From a virus, in IMG/VR virus record IMGVR_UViG_3300032213_001931, positions 1 through 60,245 of that record: a DNA stretch of 60,245 nt, one strand, 5' to 3'. The stretch's first letter is position 1. Each line of letters starts with the position of its first letter. Shown one piece after another: positions 1,039 through 17,689 of the stretch. A program made the translations under genes and the position numbers. Under the pieces are notes generated by a model. It was given only the letters and a program-made list of their open reading frames with translations. It was not told the DNA's origin and did not search any database.

Positions 1039-1048
1039 GATATTTTTT

Positions 1049-2035: not shown

Positions 2036-2040
2036 ATTTT

Positions 2041-2727
2041 TTAATTTTGTTTTTGTTTTTCTAATAAAAAAATCCCAATACCATTCCACCATGTTTTTCC
2101 AATTACATCACCTGGTAAAAATATTTTTTCATCTAAATTATCAGTTGTAAAAATTTGTTTTTCCCATAAAATATTTAAATTTAATTCTTTAATGGAATCT
2201 AATGTTCCATTTCTTGGGTCGGACCAATTCCAATCATCAACAATAAAAATAAAAATGTTATCCAAACATTCGTAAAAATATTTTAAAGCTTTATTTTGGT
2301 CCTCATATGAATGCCCAGCATCATATAAAAACATATTGAATTTACCAATAGATGGTACATCAATTGAATAACAATCTGAATTAATAAATTTAAAGTTATT
2401 TTCACCTTGATATTTAGATAAATTACTCATTAATCCATTTTCCGAATTATTATAACTTGATGATTCTGAAAAATTATCAACACCAACGACTATTGATTTA
2501 TTTTTATACATCGCCGAACAAACTGAACTACCTTCACCAGTCCCAACTTCAAGGTATCTTGAATCAGTATATGAAAGTAAATTATTGTAAAAATGACGTG
2601 TTTTTTCACCTGTCATAGACGAATCACTAAACGACACATAGTCATCTATTTTTGATGATTTAGATTCGGCTAAATCTACACATTTTTCTAAATGTAATTT
2701 TAAATTTTCAATTAATTCTAAATTCAT
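2041..2727 (-). CDS. Class I SAM-dependent methyltransferase
   Basis: A 228-residue protein with a SAM-binding motif I (YLEVGTGEGSS, about residues 78-88), an acidic end of strand 2 (VVGVDNFSES) and LYDAGHSYEDQ, like the metal- or substrate-binding segment of the Methyltransf_24/CmcI group. A DDWNW segment follows. The acceptor cannot be read from sequence. Its place between gmd and a glycosyltransferase suggests methylation of a sugar or glycan end, a common cap on O-antigen-like chains. Family confidence is fairly high; substrate is inference. Confidence 0.75.
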   Translation of the reverse strand: MNLELIENLKLHLEKCVDLAESKSSKIDDYVSFSDSSMTGEKTRHFYNNLLSYTDSRYLEVGTGEGSSVCSAMYKNKSIVVGVDNFSESSSYNNSENGLMSNLSKYQGENNFKFINSDCYSIDVPSIGKFNMFLYDAGHSYEDQNKALKYFYECLDNIFIFIVDDWNWSDPRNGTLDSIKELNLNILWEKQIFTTDNLDEKIFLPGDVIGKTWWNGIGIFLLEKQKQN

Positions 2728-2732
2728 TATTT

Positions 2733-3671
2733 TTATTTTATAAATTGATTTCTATACACATCCCAAAACTTAGAAACATTATCTGGAAGATATTTTTTAA
2801 AATTTTCTAAATCTCTGATTAAATTAAGTGTATTTCTATAACCAATTTCTTCATCCATCATATTATTAACTAAATTATGAACATTTCTATCTTGGTACAC
2901 AGTTGCCTTATTATATATTACAGAATTTGGAAAATAATATTGTAGTACATATGAACCCCATATATCATCCATCCTTCCTAAATAGGGAAATACAACATAA
3001 TATGGTATTACTTCCCTAGCCAAAAATGTATTTTGAGAATTAAATGGGGCAATTTGCGTTGAACAAAATGGTGAAAAATCATTAAATTTAACAATTGGTT
3101 TTTGGCTAATTCTACATATAGCATCAATATCCGGGTCACCATCCCAAAAATCAGCTTGTACTAATATTTTACGAGTAATTTTACCTTTGTATTCATTGTT
3201 ATTTTTAACATGTACATACTCAATAGGGAATCCTCTGTGCCATAATGATTTATGTTCAGTAACTGAAATTGGGTCAAACGCTTCAGACATTTTATTTTCA
3301 TAACAATCCACTTCAATTTCCTTACCCACAAAAATTTCATCACCCCAGTTGTCGTATGGTATATTATCATCATCAGATGTTGCGAGAATATCCGCTCCAT
3401 TATCGTATGCATATACAAATCCAATATTTCTTCTTTGACATTTATTCCATCCAATAGAATCACTTAATTCAGGGTAAAGTTCTTCTTGTGTTTCTGGTGA
3501 CATATACATAAAATTTTTAAATTTATGTTCCAGTATTCTATATGAATCATGTGGTGTTTTTAAATCACCAATAAAAATTAATTGCCAATCTTTTTTATCT
3601 GCAATTTCTGCGTATTTAATAGTCGCAACTGATGGTTCACTGATTGATGTTAATATCAAATATTTTTTCAT
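2733..3671 (-). CDS. STELLO-like (DUF288) glycosyltransferase
   Basis: A 312-residue protein resembling the STELLO/DUF288 glycosyltransferase family, best known from plant Golgi proteins but also found in bacteria and viruses. The start MKKYLILTSISEPS leads into a GT-A-like fold. GWNKCQRRNIGFVYA lies near 74-88 and the acidic metal-binding-like run SDDDNIPYDNW near 98-108. DPISVTEHKSLWHRGFP and FWDGDPDIDAICR are further blocks I associate with the family. No signal peptide or membrane segment is visible, so it is likely cytosolic. It overlaps the next gene upstream by 4 bases, indicating translational coupling. The donor sugar is unknown. Confidence 0.7.
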   Translation of the reverse strand: MKKYLILTSISEPSVATIKYAEIADKKDWQLIFIGDLKTPHDSYRILEHKFKNFMYMSPETQEELYPELSDSIGWNKCQRRNIGFVYAYDNGADILATSDDDNIPYDNWGDEIFVGKEIEVDCYENKMSEAFDPISVTEHKSLWHRGFPIEYVHVKNNNEYKGKITRKILVQADFWDGDPDIDAICRISQKPIVKFNDFSPFCSTQIAPFNSQNTFLAREVIPYYVVFPYLGRMDDIWGSYVLQYYFPNSVIYNKATVYQDRNVHNLVNNMMDEEIGYRNTLNLIRDLENFKKYLPDNVSKFWDVYRNQFIK

Positions 3672-4642
3672 AATCTATTTTTAATGTCGTTATATACTTT
3701 TGTTATTCCTTCTTTTAATGTGGTATTTGCCCTCCAACCTAAAACTTCTTCTGCTTTTTGACAACTACACCATTGACCCCAAATAACAGTTTCTTTTGTT
3801 TTGTCATACTCAATTTTAATATTTTTTTCTGAAATATCTACAATTGTTTCAGCGATTTCTGAAATAGTTACTCTTTCTTCCTTACCTATATTTAATGGAC
3901 CGACTAAATTAATATTATTCATTTTATTAATCATTAATTCAATACCGTCTAAAGTATCGTCAATGTAACAATATGAACGAGTCTCCAACCCTGTTCCCCA
4001 TATTTTAAAATCTATGTTAGGATATTTTATTGCTCTATGTGAAAAAACAGGTATTACAGAACCTGTATCTAAATTAAAATCTTGATTAGGTCCATAAATT
4101 CCAATAAATCTAGCAATAGCGGCATTTAAAAAATTATATTCTTTAACCGCCGACAGTATATTTTGTTCCCCAATTAATTTTGCCCAACCATATGATAATT
4201 CAGGGTCAGCAGGATATGCTTGTTCTTCATAAATTAGTGGTGAGTTACTAATAGTTTGTAATGATTTTGGGTATATATGAGCACTTGATGCATAAAAGTA
4301 TTTATTAATTTTATTATCAATAACTGCTTTTAATACATTACTATCAATTAAAATATTTGATGACATAATATCATATGGTTTATTTGTATAAGTCCCAATA
4401 CCGCCAACTTTAGATGCTAAATGGATAACACAGTCTTGATTTTCAAATAAATCTTTAATTTCTGAATAATTACGTAAATCAACATTATGAAAAGTAATGT
4501 TTTTTGGTAAAAATTCTAACTTTCCTCTTTCCAAATTATCTATTACGGTAATTTTATAACCTTTATCCAACAATCTATTAACAAGATGTGAACCGATAAA
4601 TCCTGCACCTCCAGTTATTAATACATTATTTATTTTTTTCAT
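3668..4642 (-). CDS. GDP-mannose 3,5-epimerase-like SDR with altered active site
   Basis: A 324-residue extended SDR. GGAGFIG lies at 11-17, Tyr151-x3-Lys155 in YGWAK, and EEQAYPADPE and GTGLETRSYCYIDD are blocks shared with plant and bacterial GDP-mannose 3,5-epimerases. The epimerase catalytic Cys, expected inside SSACIYP, is His122 here (SSAHIYP). The position equivalent to the Fcl catalytic His is Ser195. Classical Cys-dependent 3,5-epimerisation is therefore doubtful; a 4-epimerase, reductase or dehydratase role is possible. It overlaps both neighbours and is one of four SDR proteins in this part of the operon. The fold call is strong, the reaction is open. Confidence 0.75.
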   Translation of the reverse strand: MKKINNVLITGGAGFIGSHLVNRLLDKGYKITVIDNLERGKLEFLPKNITFHNVDLRNYSEIKDLFENQDCVIHLASKVGGIGTYTNKPYDIMSSNILIDSNVLKAVIDNKINKYFYASSAHIYPKSLQTISNSPLIYEEQAYPADPELSYGWAKLIGEQNILSAVKEYNFLNAAIARFIGIYGPNQDFNLDTGSVIPVFSHRAIKYPNIDFKIWGTGLETRSYCYIDDTLDGIELMINKMNNINLVGPLNIGKEERVTISEIAETIVDISEKNIKIEYDKTKETVIWGQWCSCQKAEEVLGWRANTTLKEGITKVYNDIKNRL

Positions 4643-5552
4643 ACCATTCTATTGTTTTTTTTAAACCATCAACTAATGATGTATTTGGTACGTACCCAAA
4701 CGAGTTTTTAAATTTACTCATATCATAAAATCTTCTTGGCTGACCATTCGGTTTAGACGAATCCCATATAATATTTCCCTTATATCCGACAATTTCAGAT
4801 ATTGTTTCAACTAATTCTTTAATTGATGTTTCTTTACCTGTTCCTAAATTGAATGGACCACAATCATTAATATTAATTGAATCAATAATCGCATTTACTG
4901 TATCGTCAACGTATAGAAATTCTCTAGATGCAGAACCATCCCCCCAAACAGTAATTTCTTTTAAATTATTGTTTTTACCATCAATAAATTTTTTAATTAA
5001 TGCTGGTACAACATGTGACGTTTCTAAATTAAAATTATCATTTGGTCCATATAAATTTGCAGGTAATAGTACAGTTGAATTAAACCCATATTGTTCTTTA
5101 TATGTCCATGATTGTATAATTAAATTCTTTTTAGCCATAGAATATCCTATTGAATTTTCATCAGGTAAATCCTTCCAAAAATCTTCCTCAGTATAAGGAA
5201 CTTGTAAAAACTTTGGGTAACCACAACCAGCTGCTAATGACACTAATTTATCAACATTATATAAATAAGAATAATGTGAAATTAATGTCCCCATCATTAT
5301 ATTGTCATAAAAAAAATCACCCGGTTTTTCTTTATTTGCTCCAATACCACCTACTTTACCAGCTAAGTGAATTACAATATTAGGTTTGTAAAATTCAAAA
5401 AGATTAACAACATCTGTTTCTTTTCTTAAATCAAATTCAGATTTATTTGGGGCGTAATACTCAACACCTCTTTTATCAAGTTCATGTAATAAATTTTTAC
5501 CAACAAATCCATGACCGCCAGTTACTAATACTTTTTTATTTTTTAAGTCCAT
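4626..5552 (-). CDS. fcl: GDP-L-fucose synthase-like SDR (copy 2)
   Basis: A 308-residue second Fcl-type enzyme. GGHGFVG lies at 12-18; Cys110, Tyr137-x3-Lys141 (YSMAK) and His180 match the Fcl catalytic set with an offset of 1 from E. coli numbering. PANLYGPNDNFNLETSH, DGSASREFLYVDD and the C-terminal PNGQPRR are family blocks. It is more canonical in length and motifs than the copy at 127-1038, although both keep every catalytic residue. One copy could serve GDP-fucose and the other the colitose branch. It overlaps the GME-like gene by 17 bases. Confidence 0.88.
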   Translation of the reverse strand: MDLKNKKVLVTGGHGFVGKNLLHELDKRGVEYYAPNKSEFDLRKETDVVNLFEFYKPNIVIHLAGKVGGIGANKEKPGDFFYDNIMMGTLISHYSYLYNVDKLVSLAAGCGYPKFLQVPYTEEDFWKDLPDENSIGYSMAKKNLIIQSWTYKEQYGFNSTVLLPANLYGPNDNFNLETSHVVPALIKKFIDGKNNNLKEITVWGDGSASREFLYVDDTVNAIIDSININDCGPFNLGTGKETSIKELVETISEIVGYKGNIIWDSSKPNGQPRRFYDMSKFKNSFGYVPNTSLVDGLKKTIEWYEKNK

Positions 5553-5555
5553 AAT

Positions 5556-6494
5556 TTATAAATTTGTAAAATTTTTATTTGAAAATTTTTTAATAAGTTT
5601 ATAACTCTTAATTAGTTCTTGAATACCATCATCAAGAGTATATTGAGGTTTCCATCCCATTGATTCTAATTTTTCATTAGACACCATATAATTTCTTTGG
5701 TCAAAATCTTTTTTAAATTCATTTTGAACAATAACTAAATCAGGGACATATTCTTTTATTTTTTGACACAATTCTAATTTTGTTAAATTTGCGGATGAAA
5801 GTCCAACATTAAATGCGTTATTATTACATTTTTCATAATTTTCAATCATAAATAAAAATGTATTAGCAATATCTCTAATGTGGATATAGTTCCTAATAAA
5901 ATGAGATTCAAATAAAACTAAATACCCATCATTAATTGATTTATACACAAAATCATTAACTAATAAATCAGTTCTCATTCGATATGACGACCCAAAAACT
6001 GTGGCCAATCTTAAAGCAATTCCATTACCTGAATCTAAAACTGATTTTTCAGCGTCACATTTTGTTTCAGCATATAAAGAAAGTGGATTAAAAGGACTAT
6101 CTTCAGTTATAATTTCAGTAGAAGAACCATATTGGCTATTTGTATTTGGGATTAATATCATTTGATTATTAGTAATCCATTTAGTTATATTTCTAACTTG
6201 TTCATAATTTATTTGAATTGTTAAATCAGGGTTTTCTTTACATGCTGGCATCCCAACAATTGCCGCCAACGGAATTATTACATCATGAGAAGTTACTAAT
6301 TCTTTAAGTAAATTTTCATTTCTAACGTCACCAAATATAAAATTAAAATTTTTGTTATGACAAAATGTAATTAACGACGTTTGTTTATAAATTAAATTAT
6401 CTATGACTGTTACATAATACCCTTTATTTAAAAGTAGTTCAGTTAATATTGAGCCAATATAACCAGCCCCTCCTGTTATTAAAATTTTTTTCAT
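5556..6494 (-). CDS. NAD-dependent sugar-nucleotide epimerase/dehydratase (SDR)
   Basis: A 312-residue extended SDR. GGAGYIG lies at 8-14, the cofactor-binding Asp in TVIDNL near 32, IPLAAIVGMPACKENP around 74-89, a Thr-Asn-Ser active-site strand (TNSQYG, 118-123) and Tyr141-x3-Lys145 in YAETK. The C-terminal half has RNYIHIRDIA and an Asn/Gly block (FNVG) as in nucleotide-sugar epimerases. IVGMPACKENP marks a subgroup often seen in LPS and capsule clusters, but the substrate cannot be read. It follows the kinase gene with a 2-base gap. Confidence 0.8.
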   Translation of the reverse strand: MKKILITGGAGYIGSILTELLLNKGYYVTVIDNLIYKQTSLITFCHNKNFNFIFGDVRNENLLKELVTSHDVIIPLAAIVGMPACKENPDLTIQINYEQVRNITKWITNNQMILIPNTNSQYGSSTEIITEDSPFNPLSLYAETKCDAEKSVLDSGNGIALRLATVFGSSYRMRTDLLVNDFVYKSINDGYLVLFESHFIRNYIHIRDIANTFLFMIENYEKCNNNAFNVGLSSANLTKLELCQKIKEYVPDLVIVQNEFKKDFDQRNYMVSNEKLESMGWKPQYTLDDGIQELIKSYKLIKKFSNKNFTNL

Positions 6495-6496
6495 AA

Positions 6497-7231
6497 TTAA
6501 TTTACAGTGTTTGTTCCTCTTTTTTGAATAACTTTAGTTGAACATTCATTTGCAAATTGAATTGATTCAGTTAAGTCATGTTTATTAATAAATTTAGATA
6601 CTAATGCGGCAATAAATGTGTCACCAGCCCCACAGACATCTTTAACATCTACTTTTGGTACTTTATATTGTATTCCGTTGTAAATACACCCGTCAGAACC
6701 TAAAGTAGTTATTATTTTTTCTTTTAATTCATCGTCAATTATTGACGATGATAGTTGATATTCAAATTGATTTATTTTTATTAAAAATGAATTTTTTGCC
6801 CAATCTCCTAATATTTTTTTTGTGTCTAAAAAAACATATTTGTGTTTTTTTGAAATATCTTCAATAGATTCTTTAGATAAAAATCCTTTATCATAATCAG
6901 AAATTATAATAGCATCATAATTTAAAAAATTAATTGATGAATAATCAATTATTCCATAACAGTCATCACAAGTATCTACTCTTATAAACATTTGATTTGT
7001 TTTATCATCAATAAATCTTCTTTTTTGAATTGATTTCCAGTTGTCATTTGTGATAATATCACAATCAACACCTAATGACTTAACATTTAAATAAACATTC
7101 ATTGCCATACCTCCGACCTCATTTGTTGATTTTGGTGAAAACACTGGTACTGGTGCTTCAGGTGCTAATCGATTAACAACACCATAACAATAAACATCAT
7201 TACACGACTCCCCAATAACTAGTATTTTCAT
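6497..7231 (-). CDS. PfkB-family sugar kinase, short RfaE/HldE kinase-like form
   Basis: A 244-residue ribokinase-fold protein resembling the N-terminal kinase domain of RfaE/HldE, which phosphorylates D-glycero-D-manno-heptose 7-phosphate at C1. The start MKILVIGESCNDVYCYG and NRLAPEAPVPVF at 20-31 match the RfaE signature ISPEAPVPV. GGMAMNVYLNVKSLG matches the sugar-binding GGAAN block, and DVCGAGDTFIAAL holds the catalytic Asp. It is about 70 residues shorter than usual, with most of the segment between DCDII and KSIQKRRF missing, and there is no nucleotidyltransferase domain. No other heptose gene is visible, so the substrate is uncertain. Confidence 0.78.
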   Translation of the reverse strand: MKILVIGESCNDVYCYGVVNRLAPEAPVPVFSPKSTNEVGGMAMNVYLNVKSLGVDCDIITNDNWKSIQKRRFIDDKTNQMFIRVDTCDDCYGIIDYSSINFLNYDAIIISDYDKGFLSKESIEDISKKHKYVFLDTKKILGDWAKNSFLIKINQFEYQLSSSIIDDELKEKIITTLGSDGCIYNGIQYKVPKVDVKDVCGAGDTFIAALVSKFINKHDLTESIQFANECSTKVIQKRGTNTVN

Positions 7232-7232
7232 A

Positions 7233-7634
7233 TTACCAACTAATTTCCCAATCTTTAAAATCTGAAGCTAAGCAATCAATTTTGTAATCTTTCCTACCTC
7301 CAACACACTCTTGGATTTTGTTTTTTGCGGTATTTCTAATACCATTTAAACCATGTGTTAGTTCTAAATTATTACCATCTTTAATACCTTTTCGATAATT
7401 TGATTCATTGTGCCATATATGTAAATTCATTTGAGACAAAACAACTATTGACCTAATGTCTTTTGCCGATAATATAACATTATCATTATCTAAAATTAAT
7501 TGTATATCGTGTAATATATCACTAATTTCTTTTGAATATTCTTCTTTATGTTCATTTATGAAAACTTCTTTTAATTGAATAATTGACAATCTGTCTATTA
7601 ATTCACTTAGTGTTGGTAGGTATATTCTATTCAT
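7233..7634 (-). CDS. Small DUF4254-like protein, copy 1
   Basis: A 133-residue, probably all-helical cytosolic protein. ELIDRLSIIQLK lies near 11-22 and NLHIWHNESNYRKG near 71-84, with a downstream GLNGIRN segment. These recall the DUF4254 family, whose members often lie in LPS and capsule clusters. The protein at 11194-11556 has the same layout (EKLSILHCRMWYLEDSI), so the two look like diverged copies. Function is unknown. The gene overlaps the upstream glycosyltransferase gene by 4 bases, consistent with co-translation. Confidence 0.6.
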   Translation of the reverse strand: MNRIYLPTLSELIDRLSIIQLKEVFINEHKEEYSKEISDILHDIQLILDNDNVILSAKDIRSIVVLSQMNLHIWHNESNYRKGIKDGNNLELTHGLNGIRNTAKNKIQECVGGRKDYKIDCLASDFKDWEISW

Positions 7635-8509
7635 TTTTTTTCTATATAATCTTTATAAAAATTTTTAATATTGTACAAAGTTTCAACTTTATTATATGCG
7701 TTATTAATTATTTTTTGATATTTTTCATTTTCATAATTTTCCAAAATATCTCTTACAATATCGTCAAAATTGTAATCGTCAAAATAAATAAAGTCAACAT
7801 CTGGTACAAAGAAGTCTTCAATTATGTTAAAATCGTCTTTTTTACATAAAATTAATGCTCCACATCTTGCGGCTTCAATAACTCTTGATTTATGTTGAGT
7901 TATGTATGGGAATCCTAGTCCGTTTTTAATGTTTAAAAAACTATCACCGGCATTTAAATCCCATCCATTTAAGTCAACTCTAATTACATTATGAACAATT
8001 GCAATTTTTGATTTTGAAATTAGGTCTAATTTTTCATTAAACGTCACATTAAAAATGTTTGTATATTTTTCATGGAATTTATTAACAACCAAATATTTGT
8101 ATTTTAATATTTTATCGGTCAATAAGTAGTTACTTCCTCCTCCAACATAGATTAAATCGTATATCTTATCATTATTTCTAGTCCATGATGTTGGAGATGG
8201 GTAATATGTATAATGGTATAATTCTTTACCTAACGCATCATTTCTTAATTTAACAGTATAAGGACATATTGTAAAAATTTTGTCATATTTTTTTTCAAAA
8301 ATATTAACATGTTGTTCCCTAACATTTGGTATGATAAACCCATTAGGTAACTCAAAATCTAAAGAGTAATATAACTTACCATCTTCTTTATTAAAATCTC
8401 TTCCATCAATATGAAGTTCTATATTATCAGTATCTTTTGTATCAATGCTTTCAAAATTTAAAAAAAGTACTGGGTCTTCTGGAAAAATAATTGGATTTTT
8501 TACTATCAT
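7631..8509 (-). CDS. Glycosyltransferase, GT-B fold (Glyco_trans_1_2-like)
   Basis: A 292-residue protein. The C-terminal half has HKSRVIEAARCGALILCKKD and a following IIEDFF/FDDYNFDDIV stretch. This matches the nucleotide-sugar-binding C-terminal domain of the CgeB/Glyco_trans_1_2 group, where Glu and the small-residue turn contact the donor. The N-terminal half has DLIYVGGGSNYLL as the expected inter-domain strand. It has no signal peptide or membrane span. It overlaps both neighbours by 4 bases. Donor and acceptor are unknown. Confidence 0.7.
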   Translation of the reverse strand: MIVKNPIIFPEDPVLFLNFESIDTKDTDNIELHIDGRDFNKEDGKLYYSLDFELPNGFIIPNVREQHVNIFEKKYDKIFTICPYTVKLRNDALGKELYHYTYYPSPTSWTRNNDKIYDLIYVGGGSNYLLTDKILKYKYLVVNKFHEKYTNIFNVTFNEKLDLISKSKIAIVHNVIRVDLNGWDLNAGDSFLNIKNGLGFPYITQHKSRVIEAARCGALILCKKDDFNIIEDFFVPDVDFIYFDDYNFDDIVRDILENYENEKYQKIINNAYNKVETLYNIKNFYKDYIEKK

Positions 8510-9267
8510 TTATCTATGTATTTGTAGTTATTTTCATTGTAATTAAATAATAAACTAAATGTTGACACATTACTATTACATATTATTTTATAATCAGTTA
8601 ATGATAAACAATACGAATCAATTAATACTTGTTCGGCTAATTTAATTTTGTCAAAATTATAATCATTATGGAAATGAATTGCTTGAGTGCCTAAACTTCT
8701 AAAACATTCATTATAAGTTAATTTATCCTGAAATTTGTCAATAAATTTGTTAAGAGTTAATTGGCTATCTGTTATTAAAAAAATTTTATCAAATCCGTTA
8801 TCAACGTAAAATTTTTCAACCATTCCAATTAGAATATCATCATTTACTATTGTGGTGATATCTCCATGGTCAGTTTTTCTTTGTTGTACCCCTAAAACTT
8901 TTAAGTTGGTATCAAATGGAATTAACACTTTCTGAAAAAAAGGGCTATCTAATAACTTAATTTGTTTAATTGCGTCACTACCCCTTTTAAGTTGTTCGTG
9001 AGTATTATTTAAATCAAAATAAATACCATATGGACATGTACTATTATTTAGTGAATAATGATATTCATTAAAATTTTGGTTACTATTAAAAAAGTAATCA
9101 AATAAATTAAAATTACTTGATTGATATAGATTATTAACCCAATCTATATTGTATGTCGATATATTGTTATCTTGTAAATAAATTACTGATGGTAAAATTC
9201 CGTGAAGCAAATCAGAAAAAAACCCTCTATTAGTATTATGTGAAATAATTTTATAATTTTGGTTCAT
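8506..9267 (-). CDS. Probable fucosyltransferase-like GT-B protein (GT23/O-FucT-like)
   Basis: A 253-residue protein with an N-terminal NRGFFSDLLHGILPSVIYLQ block, resembling the start of viral and bacterial O-FucT/GT23-like proteins. GVQQRKTDHGD near 124-134 occupies the place of the GDP-fucose-binding HxxRxTDH motif, with Gln instead of the first His. KIFLITDS, a further His-rich segment and CNSNVSTFSLLFN, like the terminal Ser/Thr phosphate-binding loop, follow. The co-location of gmd and fcl fits a GDP-fucose or GDP-colitose donor. Similarity is weak, so this is a fold-level call. Confidence 0.5.
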   Translation of the reverse strand: MNQNYKIISHNTNRGFFSDLLHGILPSVIYLQDNNISTYNIDWVNNLYQSSNFNLFDYFFNSNQNFNEYHYSLNNSTCPYGIYFDLNNTHEQLKRGSDAIKQIKLLDSPFFQKVLIPFDTNLKVLGVQQRKTDHGDITTIVNDDILIGMVEKFYVDNGFDKIFLITDSQLTLNKFIDKFQDKLTYNECFRSLGTQAIHFHNDYNFDKIKLAEQVLIDSYCLSLTDYKIICNSNVSTFSLLFNYNENNYKYIDK

Positions 9268-9271
9268 AATG

Positions 9272-10432
9272 TTATAATATTCTATTCACAATATCACATA
9301 TAAAAATAATATCCTCGTCACTTAATTCTGCATGATTTGGTAAATAAAGTCCAAAATTATGAACCTTTGTTGCGTTTGGTAATAAAGACTTACCATATTT
9401 TTCATACCAGAATGGTTGTTCCGTCATTGAGCCACAAATCAGTGGTCGGCATTCTATATCATTTTTTTGTAATTCAAGAACTAATGAATCAATTTTATCT
9501 GTGATTATAGGATATGCAAAATTTGACACATAAGAATCATTAGGTGGAGTTATTTTCCAAATACTATCTTTAATTAATTTATTATATAGGTCAAAATTAT
9601 CTTTTCTTTTTGAAACTATTTTATTAATTGAATCCATTTGATTTATACCAATAAATGCCTGTAAATCAGTACTTCTTAAATTAAAACCTGGATAATAAAA
9701 CGTATATAATGCTCTAAAATCTCCAACGTCATATTTTTTTCTAATATCTTGTTTTTTTGATTCAGGTAAATCTCTGTCCCATCCATGACTTCTAATTGAC
9801 AATAAAATATGATAAAAATCTTCATCGTCAGTACAAACCATTCCACCTTCAATAGTTGAAATGTGGTGACCGAAATAAAAAGAAAACGATGACATCAGAC
9901 CTAACGTACCTAATTTTTTACCTTTATATTCAGAACCAACAGATTCGCAAGTATCCTCAAGAAGTAGGATGTCATTTTCATTACAAATTTGGATTATTTC
10001 ATCCATATGATTAGGTATCCCTAAAACATGTACTAATATAATACTTGATGGATTATGCTCTGAAATTAATTTTTTTAAATGATTAATATCTAAACCTAAA
10101 TTATTTTCATCACAATCACACATAATTGGTTCAAATCCCAATTGCATTGCTGGAGATACTGTTGTAACCCATGAAACTGAAGGTACAATTATTTTATTAT
10201 TTTTTAATTTACCTGATAATAATAACGAGTAAAACATTGCTAAATTTGCAGATGAACCTGAGTTAAGATAAACTGAGTATTTAACCCCAAGCCATGAAGA
10301 CCAACTTTTTTCAAATTCATCAGTTAAATTTCCTTTAGTTAATTTTGGGTTAGTCTTTAGCCACTCAATTAAATTATTAATGTGTGATTCGTTAATGGTG
10401 TCTTTAACTAATGTTATTTTTTTTTGTGTCAT
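9272..10432 (-). CDS. colD: ColD-like GDP-4-keto-6-deoxymannose 3-dehydratase
   Basis: A 386-residue DegT/DnrJ/EryC1/StrS-fold PLP/PMP enzyme. In aminotransferases of the fold the cofactor Lys sits in SFxxxKxxTxxEGG; here it is His189 in SFYFGHHISTIEGG. That Lys-to-His change is the hallmark of ColD, which removes the C3 hydroxyl of GDP-4-keto-6-deoxymannose on the way to GDP-L-colitose. Other blocks match ColD closely as I recall it: NSGSSANLAMF, IVPSVSWVTT, LLEDTCESVGS, TDDEDFYHILLSIRSHGW and IECRPLICG. The substrate is exactly the product of the gmd gene in this operon. A transaminase role is unlikely without the Lys. CDP-sugar E1/RfbH-like activity is a less likely alternative, since no iron-sulphur cysteines are seen. 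Confidence 0.88.
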   Translation of the reverse strand: MTQKKITLVKDTINESHINNLIEWLKTNPKLTKGNLTDEFEKSWSSWLGVKYSVYLNSGSSANLAMFYSLLLSGKLKNNKIIVPSVSWVTTVSPAMQLGFEPIMCDCDENNLGLDINHLKKLISEHNPSSIILVHVLGIPNHMDEIIQICNENDILLLEDTCESVGSEYKGKKLGTLGLMSSFSFYFGHHISTIEGGMVCTDDEDFYHILLSIRSHGWDRDLPESKKQDIRKKYDVGDFRALYTFYYPGFNLRSTDLQAFIGINQMDSINKIVSKRKDNFDLYNKLIKDSIWKITPPNDSYVSNFAYPIITDKIDSLVLELQKNDIECRPLICGSMTEQPFWYEKYGKSLLPNATKVHNFGLYLPNHAELSDEDIIFICDIVNRIL

Positions 10433-11186
10433 AATATGTTAAATTTAGTAATTCTTCATAATTTGAATATTTTATCTTAGAAAAATAATCTCTTCTACTA
10501 TTCGATAATGAGTTTGATTCGTCAAATGAAATATAGTCAATATAATTAAGATTGGAAATAGAGTACAAATCTTTTATGAATTCTCCAACATTGATTAGCT
10601 CCCCACTACCAATCAATAAATCTTCATTTGTTAATATCGAATGTTTAACAATGACTGATGGATGTATTAAATCTCTATAAAAATTAACATTACCTACCGA
10701 TATTTTTTGTTTATTAATTAATGAATCAAAAATTTTACCAAATAAAAACCCACTATTTCTATAAGGGGAATTAAAATTAAACGGGTAAATTATAACTACA
10801 TTATTATATTTTTCACGATATTCATTTATGTAATCTGATAAAATTTCTTTTGATTTTATGTAAGGAGAATAACCATAATTATATTTCATATCAATAGAAA
10901 CTTCCCCATCGTAGTTGTTCCACAATTCAGATGTTGAATATATCACTACTTGGTTACAAGAATCCTTTATTGAATCAATAACTGATAATGTGTAAGTCAC
11001 ATTCACATCAACATAAAAATTTTCAGTTTCATTTAAAAATGTTTTTTGTTCTGCAAATAATATGAAAATTTTGTCATATTTTTTTTTATTAATTTCATCG
11101 TAATTTATATTACGAGATGAAATCCTATCAAAATCTTTTGGAAAATAAAAACTTAATTGAGAGGTATCTCCGATTATTAAATTCAT
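10404..11186 (-). CDS. Divergent SDR-family sugar-nucleotide enzyme
   Basis: A 260-residue protein from the ATG at 11186, which starts MNLIIGDTSQ and sits 7 bases after the upstream stop. The frame is open to 11228, but that would overlap the upstream gene. The N-terminal Rossmann glycine loop is degenerate. VVIYSTSELWNN and Tyr-x3-Lys (YIKSK, about Tyr109/Lys113) followed by IIYPFNFNSPYRNSGFLFG place it in the extended SDR fold, as does FYRDLIHPSVIV. It overlaps the colD start by 29 bases, so the two may act together, for example as a reductase after 3-dehydration. Substrate is unknown. Confidence 0.6.
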   Translation of the reverse strand: MNLIIGDTSQLSFYFPKDFDRISSRNINYDEINKKKYDKIFILFAEQKTFLNETENFYVDVNVTYTLSVIDSIKDSCNQVVIYSTSELWNNYDGEVSIDMKYNYGYSPYIKSKEILSDYINEYREKYNNVVIIYPFNFNSPYRNSGFLFGKIFDSLINKQKISVGNVNFYRDLIHPSVIVKHSILTNEDLLIGSGELINVGEFIKDLYSISNLNYIDYISFDESNSLSNSRRDYFSKIKYSNYEELLNLTYYDTKKNNIS

Positions 11187-11193
11187 ACAATAA

Positions 11194-11556
11194 TTAAAAT
11201 CCTTTGTATTGTTTAACTGAATCTTCAATTAATGATTTTCCATTAATTATTGAATTCTCAACCATACGATTAATTGCCTGTACGTATTTAGGCCTTTTAA
11301 TTTTAAAACAGATATCAATTTTCTTTTTTAGTTCTGCAATTTCAGAGTCACTTTTTGCGACGCTAATTGAATCCTCCAAATACCACATTCGACAATGGAG
11401 TATTGATAATTTCTCAATCACTTCACCTAAATTATCGGTTTCAATAATATCATCTGGTAACTCAACATTTTTATTTTTATTTAAAATTTCTAAAATTTTA
11501 GATTCAATTATTTTTTCTATATTTTCGCCAATCATACTAATTAATTTATTATACAA
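11194..11556 (-). CDS. Small DUF4254-like protein, copy 2
   Basis: A 120-residue helical protein with EKLSILHCRMWYLEDSIS near 49-66, a Lys/Glu-rich helix and KYVQAINRMVENSI. The order of motifs is the same as in the protein at 7233-7634, and both resemble DUF4254, a family of unknown function seen in polysaccharide loci. An alternative start at the ATG at 11535 (MIGENIEK) would give 113 residues and remove the 16-base overlap with the upstream gene; I cannot choose between them from sequence. Confidence 0.55.
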   Translation of the reverse strand: MYNKLISMIGENIEKIIESKILEILNKNKNVELPDDIIETDNLGEVIEKLSILHCRMWYLEDSISVAKSDSEIAELKKKIDICFKIKRPKYVQAINRMVENSIINGKSLIEDSVKQYKGF

Positions 11557-12404
11557 TTTTTTATTGTTTCTTTAATAATTGTCATGTCAAAATTATTTGA
11601 CCATAAAAATTTTGCTTTTATATCTGAGTAGAATCTACCTTCGTTAGGATTATAACTAAATGCAATAAAAGTTTTATTAGTATCTAACAAATTTTGTTTT
11701 ATTTGTGCAAAACAATAAGGACCTGATGCTCTACCAATGATAACATCGCAAAATGTTGAGATTTGGCTAATATATAGTAAATCGGGTAAAATTTGAGTAA
11801 TTGAATCTACATTTATCATGTTTGAGTTTACACAAGGAACTGATTTTGTACAAATAAATAACACATCTGGATACTCATAAGATAATTCAGTTATTACTGG
11901 GTAAAAATCAAAATTATAAGATTGACTTGAATGAACATCTCCATTAGAAATTAAAATAATTTTTTTGTATTTTTCTTTAAGTTCAACCATTTGGGAATTA
12001 ATGGTTTCATATTTTGGTAAATTACTAAAATTAACACTTGGTAAATATTCTTCGATATGGTTAACAGAAATGTCTAAAGATTGACAAATATCTTTAGTTA
12101 ATTCCATGTGATTTTCAAAAGAACACCCGGCATTAATTCGATTAGTATAGGTCATACCACCTTGACCTAACCAAGTATTAACTGCGTTATATTTTAAACT
12201 ATCAGAAAAATGGTCGTGTGTTTGAAATTCTAAAGGTATACCTTGAATCTCTTCAACATCTTCCATATCTTGGAATAAAGGCGGATTTAAATTATGATAA
12301 AATTTAACATGAAATTTAGTTTTTAATAACTCAGTTACCATTCTTGAAAACAACATGTCTCCATTATGGAAGTGGTTGTATAAATTAATAGTTGGTTTTG
12401 ACAT
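11541..12404 (-). CDS. Putative GT-B glycosyltransferase, heptosyltransferase (GT9)-like
   Basis: A 287-residue protein beginning MSKPTINLYNHFHNGDMLFSR. The N-terminal Asn-His-Phe-His-Asn-Gly-Asp region resembles the IGDxL start of GT9-like enzymes. KKIILISNGDVHSSQ is a likely donor-domain strand and loop, ELSYEYPDVLFICT a helix-strand unit, and CDVIIGRASGPYCFAQ matches the phosphate-binding region of the GT9/GT30 C-domain. No membrane segment is seen. It lies among other transferases in the operon. A heptose donor would fit the RfaE-like kinase at 6497-7231, but that is inference. Confidence 0.45.
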   Translation of the reverse strand: MSKPTINLYNHFHNGDMLFSRMVTELLKTKFHVKFYHNLNPPLFQDMEDVEEIQGIPLEFQTHDHFSDSLKYNAVNTWLGQGGMTYTNRINAGCSFENHMELTKDICQSLDISVNHIEEYLPSVNFSNLPKYETINSQMVELKEKYKKIILISNGDVHSSQSYNFDFYPVITELSYEYPDVLFICTKSVPCVNSNMINVDSITQILPDLLYISQISTFCDVIIGRASGPYCFAQIKQNLLDTNKTFIAFSYNPNEGRFYSDIKAKFLWSNNFDMTIIKETIKNCIIN

Positions 12405-12411
12405 TTTTTAT

Positions 12412-13218
12412 TTAAAGATATTTTTTAATATAATTTATATAAATAAAATTTTCAGGACATATGTAAGATTTAACCCTTTCAAAATTATCATTTATTGCAT
12501 TAATTTTAGATACATAAAGTTCTTTAGTCAAGTCATTTAATGATATATCGTCTAAAAATAATATACCATCAGGATTAAAATGATTTAATATATTTTTAGT
12601 TCCTTTATACACTGGTATGGTACCAGTCGCAAAACAATCTAATATTTTTTCAGTAAAATATGTATCTCTAGTATCGTTTTCAACGCAAATTGAAAACATA
12701 TAATCGTTAAGTGCGTCTTCTTTATTTTCTATCGGAAAAAAACCTCGTCCAAAAACATCAATAGTATTTCTAACTGACTCTGCGTAATTACATCTAAAAA
12801 TTTGTTGAGGGGTCATTTGTTTATTTGATGTAATCATTGATATTAATTTTGTTTTTTCATGTACCGATGGTGATTTTATCCATGACCCCATAGCTGGGAC
12901 CCATTTAAATTTACTATGTAGACTTAAAAGTGATTCATTATAAGTAAAAATTAATTCATATGTGTCAAGTATTGCGTCTAAATGATTTTGTACTAGTTCA
13001 AAAGAATTATTATTAAAATAATGTGATTCTAATAACCATAAAAATTTAATTTTACCATCATTTTTTTCATTAATACCTTTAAACATATCAAAATCAATAT
13101 AAAATGATATATCATTTTTTTTACTGAAAAAATCCCATTCAAAATAGTCACATTTTTGGTTTACGGTTGATGATATATCATGCGAAAATTGTGGAGATAA
13201 CATATTAATTTTCTTCAT
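12412..13218 (-). CDS. GT10-family fucosyltransferase
   Basis: A 268-residue protein with the GT10 donor-binding block at residues 172-206: DYMFSICVENDTRDTYFTEK, then an AxGTIPVYKG-like stretch. This matches the GT10 pattern in which a Glu-Asn pair, Tyr and TEK bind GDP-fucose. FLWLLESHYF and VPAMGSWI lie in the N-terminal acceptor domain. GT10 enzymes add L-fucose in alpha-1,3 or alpha-1,4 linkage. It lacks a membrane anchor and the C-terminal heptad repeats of Helicobacter FucT. It overlaps the GT11 gene by 14 bases; with fcl and gmd present, a GDP-fucose or GDP-colitose donor is plausible. Confidence 0.85.
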   Translation of the reverse strand: MKKINMLSPQFSHDISSTVNQKCDYFEWDFFSKKNDISFYIDFDMFKGINEKNDGKIKFLWLLESHYFNNNSFELVQNHLDAILDTYELIFTYNESLLSLHSKFKWVPAMGSWIKSPSVHEKTKLISMITSNKQMTPQQIFRCNYAESVRNTIDVFGRGFFPIENKEDALNDYMFSICVENDTRDTYFTEKILDCFATGTIPVYKGTKNILNHFNPDGILFLDDISLNDLTKELYVSKINAINDNFERVKSYICPENFIYINYIKKYL

Positions 13219-14041
13219 ACACTAATTTATTATTTTTATATATTACATTTATTTTATTCCAATCTGCTTCATATATGTCATTATAATTTTGTTCACCCAT
13301 TGGTCCAAACCAAACACTCGGTACAAAAACTTTTTTATCAGTATTTTTGTTTAAAAAACTACCCCACCATGAAAAAGATGAATTAGACATAATATTATGA
13401 TTACACATACTAATTAACCATAAATCTTCATAATCATCAAGCTCATTAACAATAGTCATATTTGTATAATTCAAATTATCTTTAACCCATTCAATATCAT
13501 CTGAAAAAACAAACAGATGACTATAATTTCCAATTAATTTAATACAATGGTCAATATATGTTTTATCAATAACTGGTAATATATTTCCGATATTTAAATA
13601 ATCTCCTCTTCTGACATGTATAGAAACTGTATTTTTATTATTAATTTCAGGATATTTTTCTTTTAATTTAGACACTTCATTATCATTAGGTTGGAATAAT
13701 TCTGAAATTATATCATTAAATCCTAAAAAATTTTTACTACTTTGAAAGTACCCAAAAAATTGTATTGGATTGTCCCATTTTAAATTTAAATTAACATATT
13801 GCCAAGGTGATTCAACTACAGTATAACCATTTAATTCATCTACAAATTTAATCTTTTTAAAAATATTATTTAGATATTTTGTCGGTTGGTGGGCTTGCAT
13901 TGGAGTGTAGGCAGTTGGCACGAATAAAGATGGTACACTATTTTTTAAACCTTGTGATATTGCGTGAGATATTTGAAACATTTGATTTCCTAACCCACCC
14001 ATTAAATGGGCGGTTGAAAATACCTTTGGTATTGTATTCAT
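13205..14041 (-). CDS. GT11-family alpha-1,2-fucosyltransferase
   Basis: A 278-residue protein with all the GT11 signatures: GGLGNQMFQ at 15-23, the GDP-binding HVRRGDY at 142-148, SDDIEWVK and the C-terminal SNSSFSWWG. GT11 enzymes transfer L-fucose, and E. coli O55 WbgN transfers the colitose unit, in alpha-1,2 linkage to galactose. Length is typical. It overlaps both flanking genes by a few bases. The donor could be GDP-fucose or GDP-colitose, since the operon encodes candidate routes to both. Confidence 0.92.
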   Translation of the reverse strand: MNTIPKVFSTAHLMGGLGNQMFQISHAISQGLKNSVPSLFVPTAYTPMQAHQPTKYLNNIFKKIKFVDELNGYTVVESPWQYVNLNLKWDNPIQFFGYFQSSKNFLGFNDIISELFQPNDNEVSKLKEKYPEINNKNTVSIHVRRGDYLNIGNILPVIDKTYIDHCIKLIGNYSHLFVFSDDIEWVKDNLNYTNMTIVNELDDYEDLWLISMCNHNIMSNSSFSWWGSFLNKNTDKKVFVPSVWFGPMGEQNYNDIYEADWNKINVIYKNNKLVYEEN

Positions 14042-14769
14042 AATGGTTTATAAGGTTTTTTATTTCTAATAGTTTGAGCGTTCATTAATTGAAAATTTAC
14101 ACCACCACCCGCACTTCCTGGTTTATGTTCATTAAGTGGACTTTCAGCGTTATAAACTAATAATAATTTTGGTATAAATTCATAATGATTATTTCCCGCC
14201 ATTTCTACCATAGGTAAACTATATGCAACGTCAGGTGCTGATTTAAAATATTCTTGATTTTCATCTAAAAAAGACTCTTCATCAATACTTCTCCATAAAT
14301 GAGCTTTCCAAGTTCTTAAATGTGAAAAAGTAAAAACATCTTGTCTAACTGTTTTATAATTAACTTTAGATGAAAATCCAAACTGACCATTAGAATATAC
14401 AAAACTTCCATTAGTTAACCATAATTTTTTATTATTTGTATATTTTTCATTAATTGTCATTAATACTGAGTCATCAAAAAACCAATCGTCACCATCCAAT
14501 TCAACAATAATATCTTCATCATTAATTAATGATTCATCCATTATTAATTCATCCATATTTTTAAGTTTGAATTTTTTTTCAGAATTTTTAATTAATGTAA
14601 ATCTATTATCATCTTTAATTAAATCTGTTATAATTTGAACGGTATTATCTGTTGACATATCATCAATTAAAAAAACCTTAAAATTTTTATGGGTTTGGTT
14701 TTTAATTGAGTTAATACAATTTTTAACATATTCACCAGGATTCCAAAAACAACTAATTATTGTTACCAT
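14038..14769 (-). CDS. GT2-family glycosyltransferase
   Basis: A 243-residue GT-A fold transferase. The N-terminus MVTIISCFWNPGEYVKNCINSI with SIKNQTHKNFKVFLIDDMSTDNT is the nucleotide-binding start of GT2. Asp-x-Asp appears as ELDGDDWFFDD near 90-100, where the Asp pair binds the metal and donor phosphate. The C-terminal part is shorter than in membrane-bound polymerising GT2 enzymes and has no transmembrane segment, suggesting a single-addition enzyme in the cytosol. The donor sugar is not readable. It overlaps the GT11 gene by 4 bases. Confidence 0.88.
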   Translation of the reverse strand: MVTIISCFWNPGEYVKNCINSIKNQTHKNFKVFLIDDMSTDNTVQIITDLIKDDNRFTLIKNSEKKFKLKNMDELIMDESLINDEDIIVELDGDDWFFDDSVLMTINEKYTNNKKLWLTNGSFVYSNGQFGFSSKVNYKTVRQDVFTFSHLRTWKAHLWRSIDEESFLDENQEYFKSAPDVAYSLPMVEMAGNNHYEFIPKLLLVYNAESPLNEHKPGSAGGGVNFQLMNAQTIRNKKPYKPL

Positions 14770-14772
14770 ATT

Positions 14773-16410
14773 TTAACTGTTTAATACGTCAAGTATTTTA
14801 TTTTTTATTTCTTTAGATACATTTGACGATTTAAATTTATCTATATCTTTAGGGACATTAAATAATTCTTTACTAATTATGTTACCCATATTATCCACAT
14901 TATATATCCATCCTGGTTTACCACACATCCACCCTTCAATAGTGGTTCTACCTAAAAGTATTCCTGCTGTTTCAGAACATTTGTGAATATACTTGTCCAC
15001 ATCTAAAGTAGGACCATGAAATTTTACATGTGGATTTTTAGTAATATCTGAAAGAAAATTTGATTTATTTTCACCAACTAACCATAATTCTTTATTGTTT
15101 TCTTTAGTATACTGAACTAAATTTCGTATAGTTTTTTCACGTAGGTAATCTATTGACCCAACAAATAAAACATAATTTTCAGAATTTAAATTTTTATTAA
15201 AAAATTTAGTTTCATCTATAGGATTATAGATGACATCAATCATACTTTCAGGTATGTTAAAATTAGATATAATGTGTTCTTTAATTTCAGGTCTAATTGC
15301 TATGTATTTTTTAATTGATTGATGAATAACCGGGTTTTCTAATTCAATTACCTCAGAATGTATTGTGGATATTTTACTGACATTTGGATATAACATATTC
15401 ATTAAATCAACAATAGGTTTATGTTGGCAGTGAATGATATCAAAATGTGTATCTGATATTTTATAATAATTGTTTGGTATTGATGGTTTTGGACCTTCAG
15501 GTGTCATCAAAATCCATTTACCATCACCTAATTTATAACCAGGGGTTTCTTTAATATTTTTAACTTTAATACCTAATTTAGTAGCCATTAACACTAATGG
15601 TCCATTAGTTTCAGATGCAACGATTGTTACATCACAGTTTTGTTTTATCAAATTTTTAGCAAGTTCAAAGACATACATTTCAGAACCTGTAAATTTTTGA
15701 AAAAATAAACATGATATTAACACGTTTAATTTACTATCTTCGGTAAATTTTACTTTTTTAGGTAAAAATTCCGAATATTTTTCAGCAAACAAATTTCGAT
15801 TTTCTTCCCACTTTTCATTTGTCATTCCGATAGATTTATGTGTTAATCGGATATTAGTTAAAACACCAATTTTAACATTTTCTAAGAAATTTTTAAAACA
15901 AAAATTAACATCATACATGTGAAATCCACTAACCGTATCATCAAAATTTGATTTAATCTTTTGTTTGTTAATTGAAATAAATACACCATCAACAACAACA
16001 ACTTCTTTAATATCATTTGACAATGAATCTGAATATTTTGATTCCCATTTTTTACCTTCAGATTCGTGATTTACTATCCCATACATCTTTGACCTATCTT
16101 CCCACCACATTCCACTTTTTGGCATTTCTGTTGTACCCGCCATACCTAAAATTCCGTAATCAGAATTTCTATCAAATTGTTTTACTAATTTTGACGCCCA
16201 ATTATTAGTATCAAAATAGATATCGTCATGACATAATACCACAATATCAAAATTAGACTCAGATATAATTTCGTTATAAACTTGTGAAAGATTTTTTTCA
16301 CCATTGTTTACCTTTTCAATAATTTGAACTTTGGGGTGACCCGAAGATTTTTTTAAATACTCTTGAAATTCAGGATTAGAATTTCGTGTACTATATCCTA
16401 TTGTTATCAT
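14773..16410 (-). CDS. Two-domain glycosyltransferase (GT2-like plus GT4-like)
   Basis: A 545-residue fusion. Residues 1 to about 210 look like the Glyco_tranf_2_5 (StrF-like) GT-A domain: MITIGYSTR, a long helix, FDIVVLCHDDIYFD with an Asp pair, and GVFISINK. From about 228 a second GT-B domain begins (LNVLISCLFFQKFTGSEMYVFELAK). It has the GT4 features SKISTIHSE, VIYNPIDETKF, VGSIDYLREK and GILLGRTTIEGWMCGKPGW, in which Glu and Gly contact the donor. One chain could add two sugars in sequence. No membrane segments are visible. It overlaps the dUTPase gene by 4 bases. Confidence 0.85.
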   Translation of the reverse strand: MITIGYSTRNSNPEFQEYLKKSSGHPKVQIIEKVNNGEKNLSQVYNEIISESNFDIVVLCHDDIYFDTNNWASKLVKQFDRNSDYGILGMAGTTEMPKSGMWWEDRSKMYGIVNHESEGKKWESKYSDSLSNDIKEVVVVDGVFISINKQKIKSNFDDTVSGFHMYDVNFCFKNFLENVKIGVLTNIRLTHKSIGMTNEKWEENRNLFAEKYSEFLPKKVKFTEDSKLNVLISCLFFQKFTGSEMYVFELAKNLIKQNCDVTIVASETNGPLVLMATKLGIKVKNIKETPGYKLGDGKWILMTPEGPKPSIPNNYYKISDTHFDIIHCQHKPIVDLMNMLYPNVSKISTIHSEVIELENPVIHQSIKKYIAIRPEIKEHIISNFNIPESMIDVIYNPIDETKFFNKNLNSENYVLFVGSIDYLREKTIRNLVQYTKENNKELWLVGENKSNFLSDITKNPHVKFHGPTLDVDKYIHKCSETAGILLGRTTIEGWMCGKPGWIYNVDNMGNIISKELFNVPKDIDKFKSSNVSKEIKNKILDVLNS

Positions 16411-16994
16411 ATTCCTGTACTTCCAAAACCGTTATTACCTCTATCTTTTGTTTCGATATTGTCTACTTTATTAAAGTTAACCCATCGTCCTGTAACACAT
16501 CTTGCAACAACTGCTTGAGCTACTTTCATCCCCTTTTCAATTTTAAACTCCGATTGATTTGTATTAAAAATAATAACTTTAATTTCACCAGTATAACCTT
16601 CATCGACTGTACCAGGTGAATTTAAAACCATTAAACCTTGATTGATAGCCAAACCACTTTTTGACCTAACTTGAACTTCAAAATCTTGAGGTAAATCAAA
16701 ATAGATACCTGTTGGAACTAATACTCTACCAAACGCAGGTATTATTATTTCTTCAGTTGAGTATAAATCAAATCCGCTATCAGATTCATAATTATATAAT
16801 AAATCCTTACCTGATGAGGAAACATAAGTAATGGTTATTTTACCATCTAAATTTTCATCAAATGTTTTATCAAGTTCGTTAAAATCAATTTCATTTTCAA
16901 AATTGTAATCTTCGTCAAGTTCTGAAAATTTATTTTCATCTAAAAATTTTTTTATCTCGTCTAATTCTTTTTTAAAATCAAATTCTTCACTCAT
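16407..16994 (-). CDS. dut: dUTPase (deoxyuridine triphosphatase) with acidic N-terminal extension
   Basis: Hydrolyses dUTP to dUMP and pyrophosphate, keeping uracil out of DNA and feeding dTMP synthesis. All five trimeric dUTPase motifs are present in order: SGFDLYS 73-79, RSKSGLA 110-116, GTVDEGYTGEI 128-138 (catalytic Asp131), KGMKVAQ 154-160 and the C-terminal RGNNGFGSTG 185-194. The first 50 or so residues are an extra Glu/Asp-rich segment absent from the core family; its role is unknown. It lies within the glycan operon, between a glycosyltransferase and an exonuclease, with 4-base overlaps on both sides. Confidence 0.95.
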   Translation of the reverse strand: MSEEFDFKKELDEIKKFLDENKFSELDEDYNFENEIDFNELDKTFDENLDGKITITYVSSSGKDLLYNYESDSGFDLYSTEEIIIPAFGRVLVPTGIYFDLPQDFEVQVRSKSGLAINQGLMVLNSPGTVDEGYTGEIKVIIFNTNQSEFKIEKGMKVAQAVVARCVTGRWVNFNKVDNIETKDRGNNGFGSTGI

Positions 16995-17689
16995 AAGTTT
17001 GTTAATTTTATTAAAACTTTTATTAATACTTCAACATCTTTTTCGCAATAATCTTGTATTTCTTGGTATTTGTTTTCATTCCAAAATGCGTTATGAACTT
17101 TATTACCTGTCACTTCCATATTTTTAGATGTTTCAATACCAAGTGATACACACATTAATTCTAATGAACTTATCGCCCCAAATTGTCCGTATTGCCAAAT
17201 TTCTTTTGTATCAATTGCTTTAATTTCCCAGGGCTTAGTATCGTAAGACGGTAAAATAGATGATGGTAAAATACCATTAACTAACATTCTTTTTGCTAAT
17301 ACGGGAATATCAAAGTTTTTAAGATTATGCCCACAAAGAATAAAACCTAACTTGTCTACACGATTTAATAGTGTATTAGCGTCTTTAAGTAATACTTTTT
17401 CATCTGAGTTAAAAAAACTTTGTTTTTTAATATCACCTTTTGGGTCAACAAATCCTACCGAAACACAAACAATTTTTGAAAATTCGGGAACTAATGCTGC
17501 ACGATTAACAAAAATTTGGTCTATATTTAATTCACTGTCTTCAGGAAATCTTTTTTTAAACCAATCTAAATAATTAATAAATTGGAAATGAAGTTCAGGA
17601 TAATCCTTTTTAAAATTTTCATAGTTACTTGAAACCCCTACAGTTTCAATGTCAATAAATAAAATTTTGTGTAATGGATGTTTTATCAT
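16991..17689 (-). CDS. 3'-5' exonuclease, DnaQ-like (DEDD fold, PolB-exo-like)
   Basis: A 232-residue RNase H-fold exonuclease. The first acidic motif is FIDIETVG with Asp13 and Glu15. The second lies in LCGHNLKNFDIPVLAKR, where the Asp follows Asn-Phe. YCEKDVEVLIKV near the C-terminus supplies the last Asp, with Tyr in the DEDDy position. This pattern is that of the predicted 3'-5' exonuclease related to the PolB proofreading domain (PF10108-like). It is stand-alone here, while the phage polymerase at 23796 carries its own exonuclease domain, so it may serve repair or nucleotide recycling. Confidence 0.85.
   Translation of the reverse strand: MIKHPLHKILFIDIETVGVSSNYENFKKDYPELHFQFINYLDWFKKRFPEDSELNIDQIFVNRAALVPEFSKIVCVSVGFVDPKGDIKKQSFFNSDEKVLLKDANTLLNRVDKLGFILCGHNLKNFDIPVLAKRMLVNGILPSSILPSYDTKPWEIKAIDTKEIWQYGQFGAISSLELMCVSLGIETSKNMEVTGNKVHNAFWNENKYQEIQDYCEKDVEVLIKVLIKLTNL

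Follow-up and report, generated by a model that had tools for sequence, protein, structure and literature searches.

A very probable ColD-type sugar 3-dehydratase and its predicted divergent SDR partner in a nucleotide-sugar operon of a T4-like virus

The window, that is, the whole stretch of viral DNA analysed here (60,245 bases), carries by PHROGs assignment a T4-type tail sheath, a head-tail adaptor, a baseplate hub, a UvsX-like recombinase, a DnaB-like helicase and NrdB, and the contig is thus viral and T4-like; the named relatives of its DNA polymerase are distant (22-29% identity). An unbroken run of 22 genes occupies the minus strand from 127 to 18900, with gaps of at most 10 bp and most genes touching or overlapping. 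As this run extends to the left end, the virus record, which the window covers in full, was taken as a fragment cut at position 1. In a promoter scan the hits did not outnumber those in shuffled sequence. None of the 22 operon products contains a strongly hydrophobic 19-residue stretch, and for this reason they look soluble; neither a flippase nor a membrane glycosyltransferase was noticed among the operon genes. The genes of the operon that concern us are as follows.

127-1038, minus strand: FclA, GDP-L-fucose-synthase-like SDR (NF047922, 226 bits, below the cut-off of 500)
1049-2092, minus strand, start probably the ATG at 2035: Gmd, GDP-mannose 4,6-dehydratase (TIGR01472, 386 bits; cut-off 415)
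3668-4642, minus strand: NDP-sugar epimerase/dehydratase-family SDR (PF01370, 164 bits)
4626-5552, minus strand: FclB, Fcl-family SDR (NF047922, 270 bits, below the cut-off of 500)
5556-6494, minus strand: NDP-sugar epimerase/dehydratase-family SDR (PF01370, 117 bits)
6497-7231, minus strand: heptose-7-phosphate-kinase-like protein, a short PfkB kinase with an HldE N-terminal motif
7233-7634, minus strand: 133-aa protein, no Pfam or PHROGs match
9272-10432, minus strand: predicted ColD-type PLP/PMP-dependent GDP-4-keto-6-deoxymannose 3-dehydratase, 386 aa, catalytic His189
10404-11228, minus strand, likely start an ATG at about 11186: SDR8, divergent SDR (YxxxK, STSxLW)
12412-13218, minus strand: GT10 (fucosyltransferase family) glycosyltransferase (PF00852, 38.8 bits)
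13205-14041, minus strand: GT11 glycosyltransferase, alpha-1,2-fucosyl/colitosyl transferase family (PF01531, 100.6 bits)

The 133-aa protein, which adjoins the PfkB kinase, is 81% conserved in another locus (L091) and its gene lies beside SDR8 in a further one (L234). Elsewhere in the window, the N-terminal part of the product of 28066-29571 (minus strand) resembles by eye an Fe/Mn superoxide dismutase, the C-terminal part being unrelated.

The open reading frame at 9272-10432 lies on the minus strand, stops occurring throughout the plus strand there, and its product contains SFYFGHHISTIEGG, with H189 at the position of the cofactor lysine. An earlier, sequence-only reading of this DNA had described an aminotransferase fold with His189 in place of Lys, and both were borne out, H189 of the window protein aligning to H188 of ColD, the residue mutated in structures 2r0t and 3b8x. 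In a phmmer search of the PDB, ColD (2gms) was the best match at 230 bits (E=3e-67), followed by E1 (3bcx) at 141 bits and perosamine synthase (3bn1) at 127 bits; identity to ColD was only 37%. An AlphaFold2 model with a pLDDT of 94.3, computed from an alignment of the window protein and proteins of the collected loci only, placed ColD structures at the top of a fold search against the PDB (2r0t, E 5e-34, TM 0.88).

We collected 80 bacterial ColD loci, about 85 viral loci and isolated-phage records, and a quick tree was made of 124 proteins comprising 17 Lys aminotransferases, 11 E1-like His dehydratases, 29 bacterial ColD and 67 phage ColD proteins. The SH-aLRT values of these groups were 99, 99, 100 and 96, respectively. 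The 67 phage proteins formed one clade, sister to bacterial ColD (SH-aLRT 98) and well separated from both E1 and the Lys enzymes, and the clustering with true aminotransferases that the sequence-only reading had raised as a counter-indication was not seen. Pfam and PHROGs label the window protein an aminotransferase, and on those labels it could be a true aminotransferase or an inactive relative of one; this is highly improbable, as the 17 Lys enzymes all keep their lysine in a clade of their own (99), and histidine stands at the ColD H188 column in 67/67 phage relatives.

The ColD residues W88, E162, H188, R219, F242, N248, R250 and R331 are invariant across the 67 phage and 29 bacterial proteins, and the active-site residues of the phage relatives are, as read from these alignments, under strong conservation; the E1 residues at these positions are F, D, H, C, Y/F, N, K and R. 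The window protein is identical to ColD at the ColD-specific sugar/GDP-site residues W88, E162, W217, R219, N248, R250, E329 and R331. At position 187 of ColD, just before the catalytic histidine, all bacterial ColD proteins have Ser, and Gly stands there in the window protein and in 65 of the 67 phage proteins. Ser187 is not known to be needed for catalysis, and as E1 has Ala there, it was not taken as defining ColD.

E1 (E1/DdhC, RfbH) is a related His dehydratase that has a [2Fe-2S] cluster and a CDP-sugar substrate, and the window enzyme might be conceived as a CDP-4-keto-6-deoxyglucose 3-dehydrase of this type, with which it shares the fold and the replacement of Lys by His, and after which a cyanophage homologue, that of S-CAM7, is named in GenBank. 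Four cysteine columns conserved throughout the E1-like rows were taken as the cluster ligands. Three of them are R, L and I in the window protein, which keeps only the common C161 (1/4), and the same three cysteines are missing in nearly all phage ColD rows. These losses, the ColD-like R219, W217, R250 and W88 and the tree position led us to reject the E1 type, to which we give next to no likelihood. Other phage loci do encode E1-type His dehydratases in which the set of four [2Fe-2S] cysteines is complete, namely L009:7878-9173 (cyanophage RN05-S), L008:15556-16854 and L111:6621-7976, with relatives in S-B43, S-H68 and S-B05; phages may possess a second dideoxy-sugar route, of the CDP type.

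Judged by its residues, its place in the tree and its fold, and not by a database name, 9272-10432 very probably encodes a ColD-type dehydratase, and here the proposal of a ColD-type His enzyme stood. We hold it highly likely that the window enzyme is a GDP-sugar 3-dehydratase. It shares with ColD/WbdK of E. coli O55 (PDB 2gms, 3b8x) the fold, the His for Lys, the GDP-sugar-site residues, the lack of the Fe-S cysteines and a gmd neighbour, and differs from it in its 37% identity, in the Gly for Ser before the catalytic His, in being encoded by a phage and in having a partner gene that is not ColC.

An IMG/VR pattern scan of viral stretches matching the dehydratase gave at least 598 confirmed relatives. 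Of 1,179 sampled bacterial genomes from three phyla, searched at a threshold above what ordinary bacterial ColD attains, a single one yielded a phage-type copy; phage exclusivity of the clade was thus ruled out, and the phage-type ColD branch is mainly, not solely, viral. This bacterial copy (L168:1447-2628) is 53% identical, is adjoined by a glycosyltransferase-like gene and comes from a genome sampled from the phylum of a Gastranaerophilales locus (L053). Non-redundant phage loci flanked by 4.5 kb or more on both sides numbered 51; gmd lay near ColD in 35 of them, an Fcl-family SDR in 40 and a GT10 or GT11 gene in 33.

The isolated cyanophage S-CAM7 encodes, consecutively, GDP-mannose 4,6-dehydratase, GDP-L-fucose synthetase, the dehydratase and GT11, and the same gene order, under vaguer GenBank names, is present in the isolated cyanophage ACG-2014f. 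The dehydratases of both keep the His in the alignment and fall within the ColD group of the tree, not the E1 group. That of S-CAM7 (L007, KU686212.1, 12004-13137) is named 'putative CDP-4-keto-6-deoxy-D-glucose-3-dehydrase' in GenBank; because residues and tree position point to ColD, this annotation is doubtful, and the E1-type name is probably wrong, the enzyme being of the GDP type (ColD) instead. The two cyanophage cassettes follow the same gmd-fcl-dehydratase-glycosyltransferase logic as the window; in contrast to the window, their dehydratases (32% identical to that of the window) have an Fcl-type partner in place of SDR8, and their hosts are marine Synechococcus.

It had been suggested that a phage able to make a 3,6-dideoxyhexose donor would extend the known coding repertoire of phages in a striking way. 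The published cyanophage genomes with homologous cassettes weaken this suggestion, and what remains of it is that no paper naming the pathway was found. A literature search, conducted largely outside subscription journals, yielded no paper on colitose in phages or on a 3-dehydratase of phage origin. The large phage ColD branch is little described, its cyanophage cassettes being annotated in GenBank and their interpretation not found in the literature searched. As in the window, nucleotide-sugar pathways are encoded by giant viruses (chloroviruses, Megavirinae), for which routes to fucose, rhamnose, viosamine and amino sugars have been reviewed (PMC5408694, PMC10117803); the giant-virus rare-sugar review that was searched for colitose, tyvelose and abequose mentions none of them. 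Among phages, cyanophage S-SCSM1 has been described as having a GDP-fucose pathway (PMC9602691).

The gene for the enzyme that would make the predicted substrate, gmd, had been noted in the dehydratase operon and lies at 1049-2092. The operon also holds the heptose-7-phosphate-kinase-like gene (6497-7231), which could be read as a sign that the substrate of the dehydratase is a GDP-heptose or some other NDP-4-keto sugar; this HldE/PfkB-like kinase is of the ADP-heptose type. No GDP-heptose genes were seen in the window, and Gmd matches GDP-mannose 4,6-dehydratase best in the PDB, at 323 bits against 121 bits for GDP-heptose 4,6-dehydratase. ColD homologues acting on heptose do exist, those of C. 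jejuni HS:5/HS:11 using GDP-6-deoxy-4-keto-lyxo-heptose (PMC10440746), but on the evidence of the window such a substrate is very unlikely.

The sequence-only reading had gone on to a phage-borne route to GDP-L-colitose, pointing to two Fcl-like enzymes, which are indeed present (127-1038 and 4626-5552). In bacteria the gene before ColD encodes an Fcl-family enzyme (ColC) in 74 of 80 loci. Numbered as in E. coli Fcl, which has Thr164 and Asn172, these adjoining ColC proteins carry Cys at 164 in 70/74 and Lys at 172 in 61/74. Phage Fcl-family proteins encoded directly before ColD have Cys164 in 17/29 and Lys172 in 13/29, and the products of phage Fcl-like genes just after ColD show this ColC signature in 0/10. 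Both Fcl-like proteins of the window lack C164/K172. FclA has the full Fcl catalytic set (S107, C109, Y136, K140, H179) with the Fcl-type T164/N172, and groups with phage Fcl-type proteins that either do not adjoin ColD or are encoded downstream of it. FclB keeps C109, Y136, K140 and H179, has Ala for Ser107, Gly for Ser108 and A164/N172, and could be an epimerase (Cys109/His179) devoid of reductase activity and a source of C5 epimerisation.

As neither FclA nor FclB has the ColC signature, the colitose step is undocumented in the window. The dehydratase and Gmd parts of the proposed route stood, the ColC part found no support, and the colitose label was premature. A complete GDP-L-colitose pathway, in which FclA or FclB would epimerise C5 and reduce C4 as ColC does and colitose would be transferred by GT11, would accord with the Gmd, the GT11 and the two Cys109- and His179-containing Fcl-family SDRs of the window, and with related phages that combine Gmd and GT11 with an SDR of ColC signature encoded immediately upstream of ColD. 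Against it stand the missing C164/K172, the loss of Ser107 in FclB, the grouping of FclA and the existence of SDR8-ColD pairs without an Fcl-type SDR, and we regard it as rather unlikely. The simple colitose reading was held back because no SDR of the window bears the ColC signature; a ColC gene could lie beyond the left end of the contig.

Proteins with the C164/K172 signature, encoded by the gene before ColD, were seen in phage loci L112, L116, L121, L131, L146 and L147, and further in L151, L152, L156, L160, L162 and L167. In the tree the phage ColC-like proteins fall among other Fcl-like proteins of phages, away from bacterial ColC. A single origin of the two was rejected by the AU test (p 0.0001; quick tree, the group being named after inspection of the tree), and, with the forced joint grouping rejected, ColC-like enzymes appear to have two separate origins.

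A gene absent from the sequence-only reading, SDR8, shares 29 nt with the beginning of the dehydratase gene. Its product of about 260 aa conserves YxxxK and STSxLW and has a weak glycine motif (GDTSQL). In a Foldseek search with its AlphaFold2 model (pLDDT 88.9) the nearest structures were Gmd and GDP-4-keto-6-deoxymannose reductase, with no Fcl-named structure among the 50 best. RMD (PDB 2pk3, 6x3b) and Gmd are thus the closest solved folds, from which SDR8 differs by its low identity (14-20%) and an altered nucleotide-binding loop. ColD lies within 6 kb of SDR8 in 46 of 57 non-redundant viral loci. Divided by subtype, under a stricter ColD score than that of the preceding count, this holds for 43/46 viral loci of the 'EQ' subtype, to which the window belongs, and 0/9 of the 'GESRK' subtype. 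Five ColD-SDR8 loci have no Fcl-type gene in the neighbourhood, and across the whole of a 159 kb contig (that of L103) Gmd, SDR8 and ColD occur without an Fcl-family SDR. The sister subtype, with GESRK for AEQRT (L202, L203, L204, L205, L206, L207, L212, L227 and L233), has no close ColD nearby and, by eye, sometimes a methyltransferase-like gene after it, and probably uses another substrate. On the simplest reading SDR8 would be the reducer of the ColD product, and it appears a better candidate for the next step than FclA or FclB; in systems with ColC, the GDP-L-colitose synthase, that step falls to an Fcl-family SDR, whereas in the window the dehydratase is adjoined by SDR8 and the Fcl-family SDRs of the operon are without C164/K172.

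We consider it fairly probable that Gmd, the dehydratase, SDR8 and a glycosyltransferase act in this order. The scheme starts from the enzyme family, catalytic residue, GDP-site residues, operon and partner conservation read from the sequences, and from there we infer activity, substrate, stereochemistry and acceptor. Phage Gmd would convert host GDP-mannose to GDP-4-keto-6-deoxymannose. Following the chemistry of ColD as reviewed in PMC8987622, the phage dehydratase, its PMP regenerated from glutamate and His189 serving as base, would expel the C3 hydroxyl and release GDP-4-keto-3,6-dideoxymannose and ammonia. SDR8 would use NAD(P)H to reduce C4, giving a GDP-3,6-dideoxyhexose, cofactor and stereochemistry being guesses; should it act as its closest relatives RMD and Gmd do, C5 would not be epimerised. 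Reduction in the manner of RMD, leaving C5 untouched, would make the product GDP-3,6-dideoxy-D-hexose (tyvelose-type or its C4 epimer) and not L-colitose. The product is thus possibly a GDP-3,6-dideoxyhexose of the D series, with GDP-L-colitose as its main rival; however, the usual donors of GT10 and GT11 are of the L-fucose type, with which an L-sugar would agree better. Transfer of the sugar would fall to the soluble glycosyltransferases of the phage operon, the likeliest acceptor being a protein of the virion or a host glycan precursor in the cytoplasm, and since the products look soluble and no flippase or membrane glycosyltransferase was noticed, glycosylation of virion proteins would fit better than O-antigen remodelling.

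In some phage loci the gene directly before ColD encodes a Lys aminotransferase (L115:8874-9974, also L110, L123 and L129). The L115 protein best matches GDP-perosamine synthase (250 bits), and an aminotransferase of this type together with ColD could give GDP-3-deoxyperosamine. We tentatively suggest, with rather less confidence than in the scheme for the window, a large and separate viral branch of GDP-3,6-dideoxy-sugar synthesis with exchangeable finishing enzymes: SDR8, as a new SDR family, for a GDP-3,6-dideoxy-D-hexose, as in the window, a ColC evolved in the phages themselves for GDP-L-colitose, and a perosamine-synthase-like aminotransferase for GDP-3-deoxyperosamine.

In bacteria the 3,6-dideoxyhexoses colitose, tyvelose and abequose are known as markers of the O-antigen, on which serotype and recognition by phages depend. 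Were phages to make such sugars, they could coat their own virions, or alter the host surface, with sugars that the host may lack. The ColC-like signature that appeared independently in phages suggests that two residues (164 and 172) may set Fcl versus ColC specificity, and with the ColD class present in hundreds of viral contigs and in cultured cyanophages, the question is testable now.
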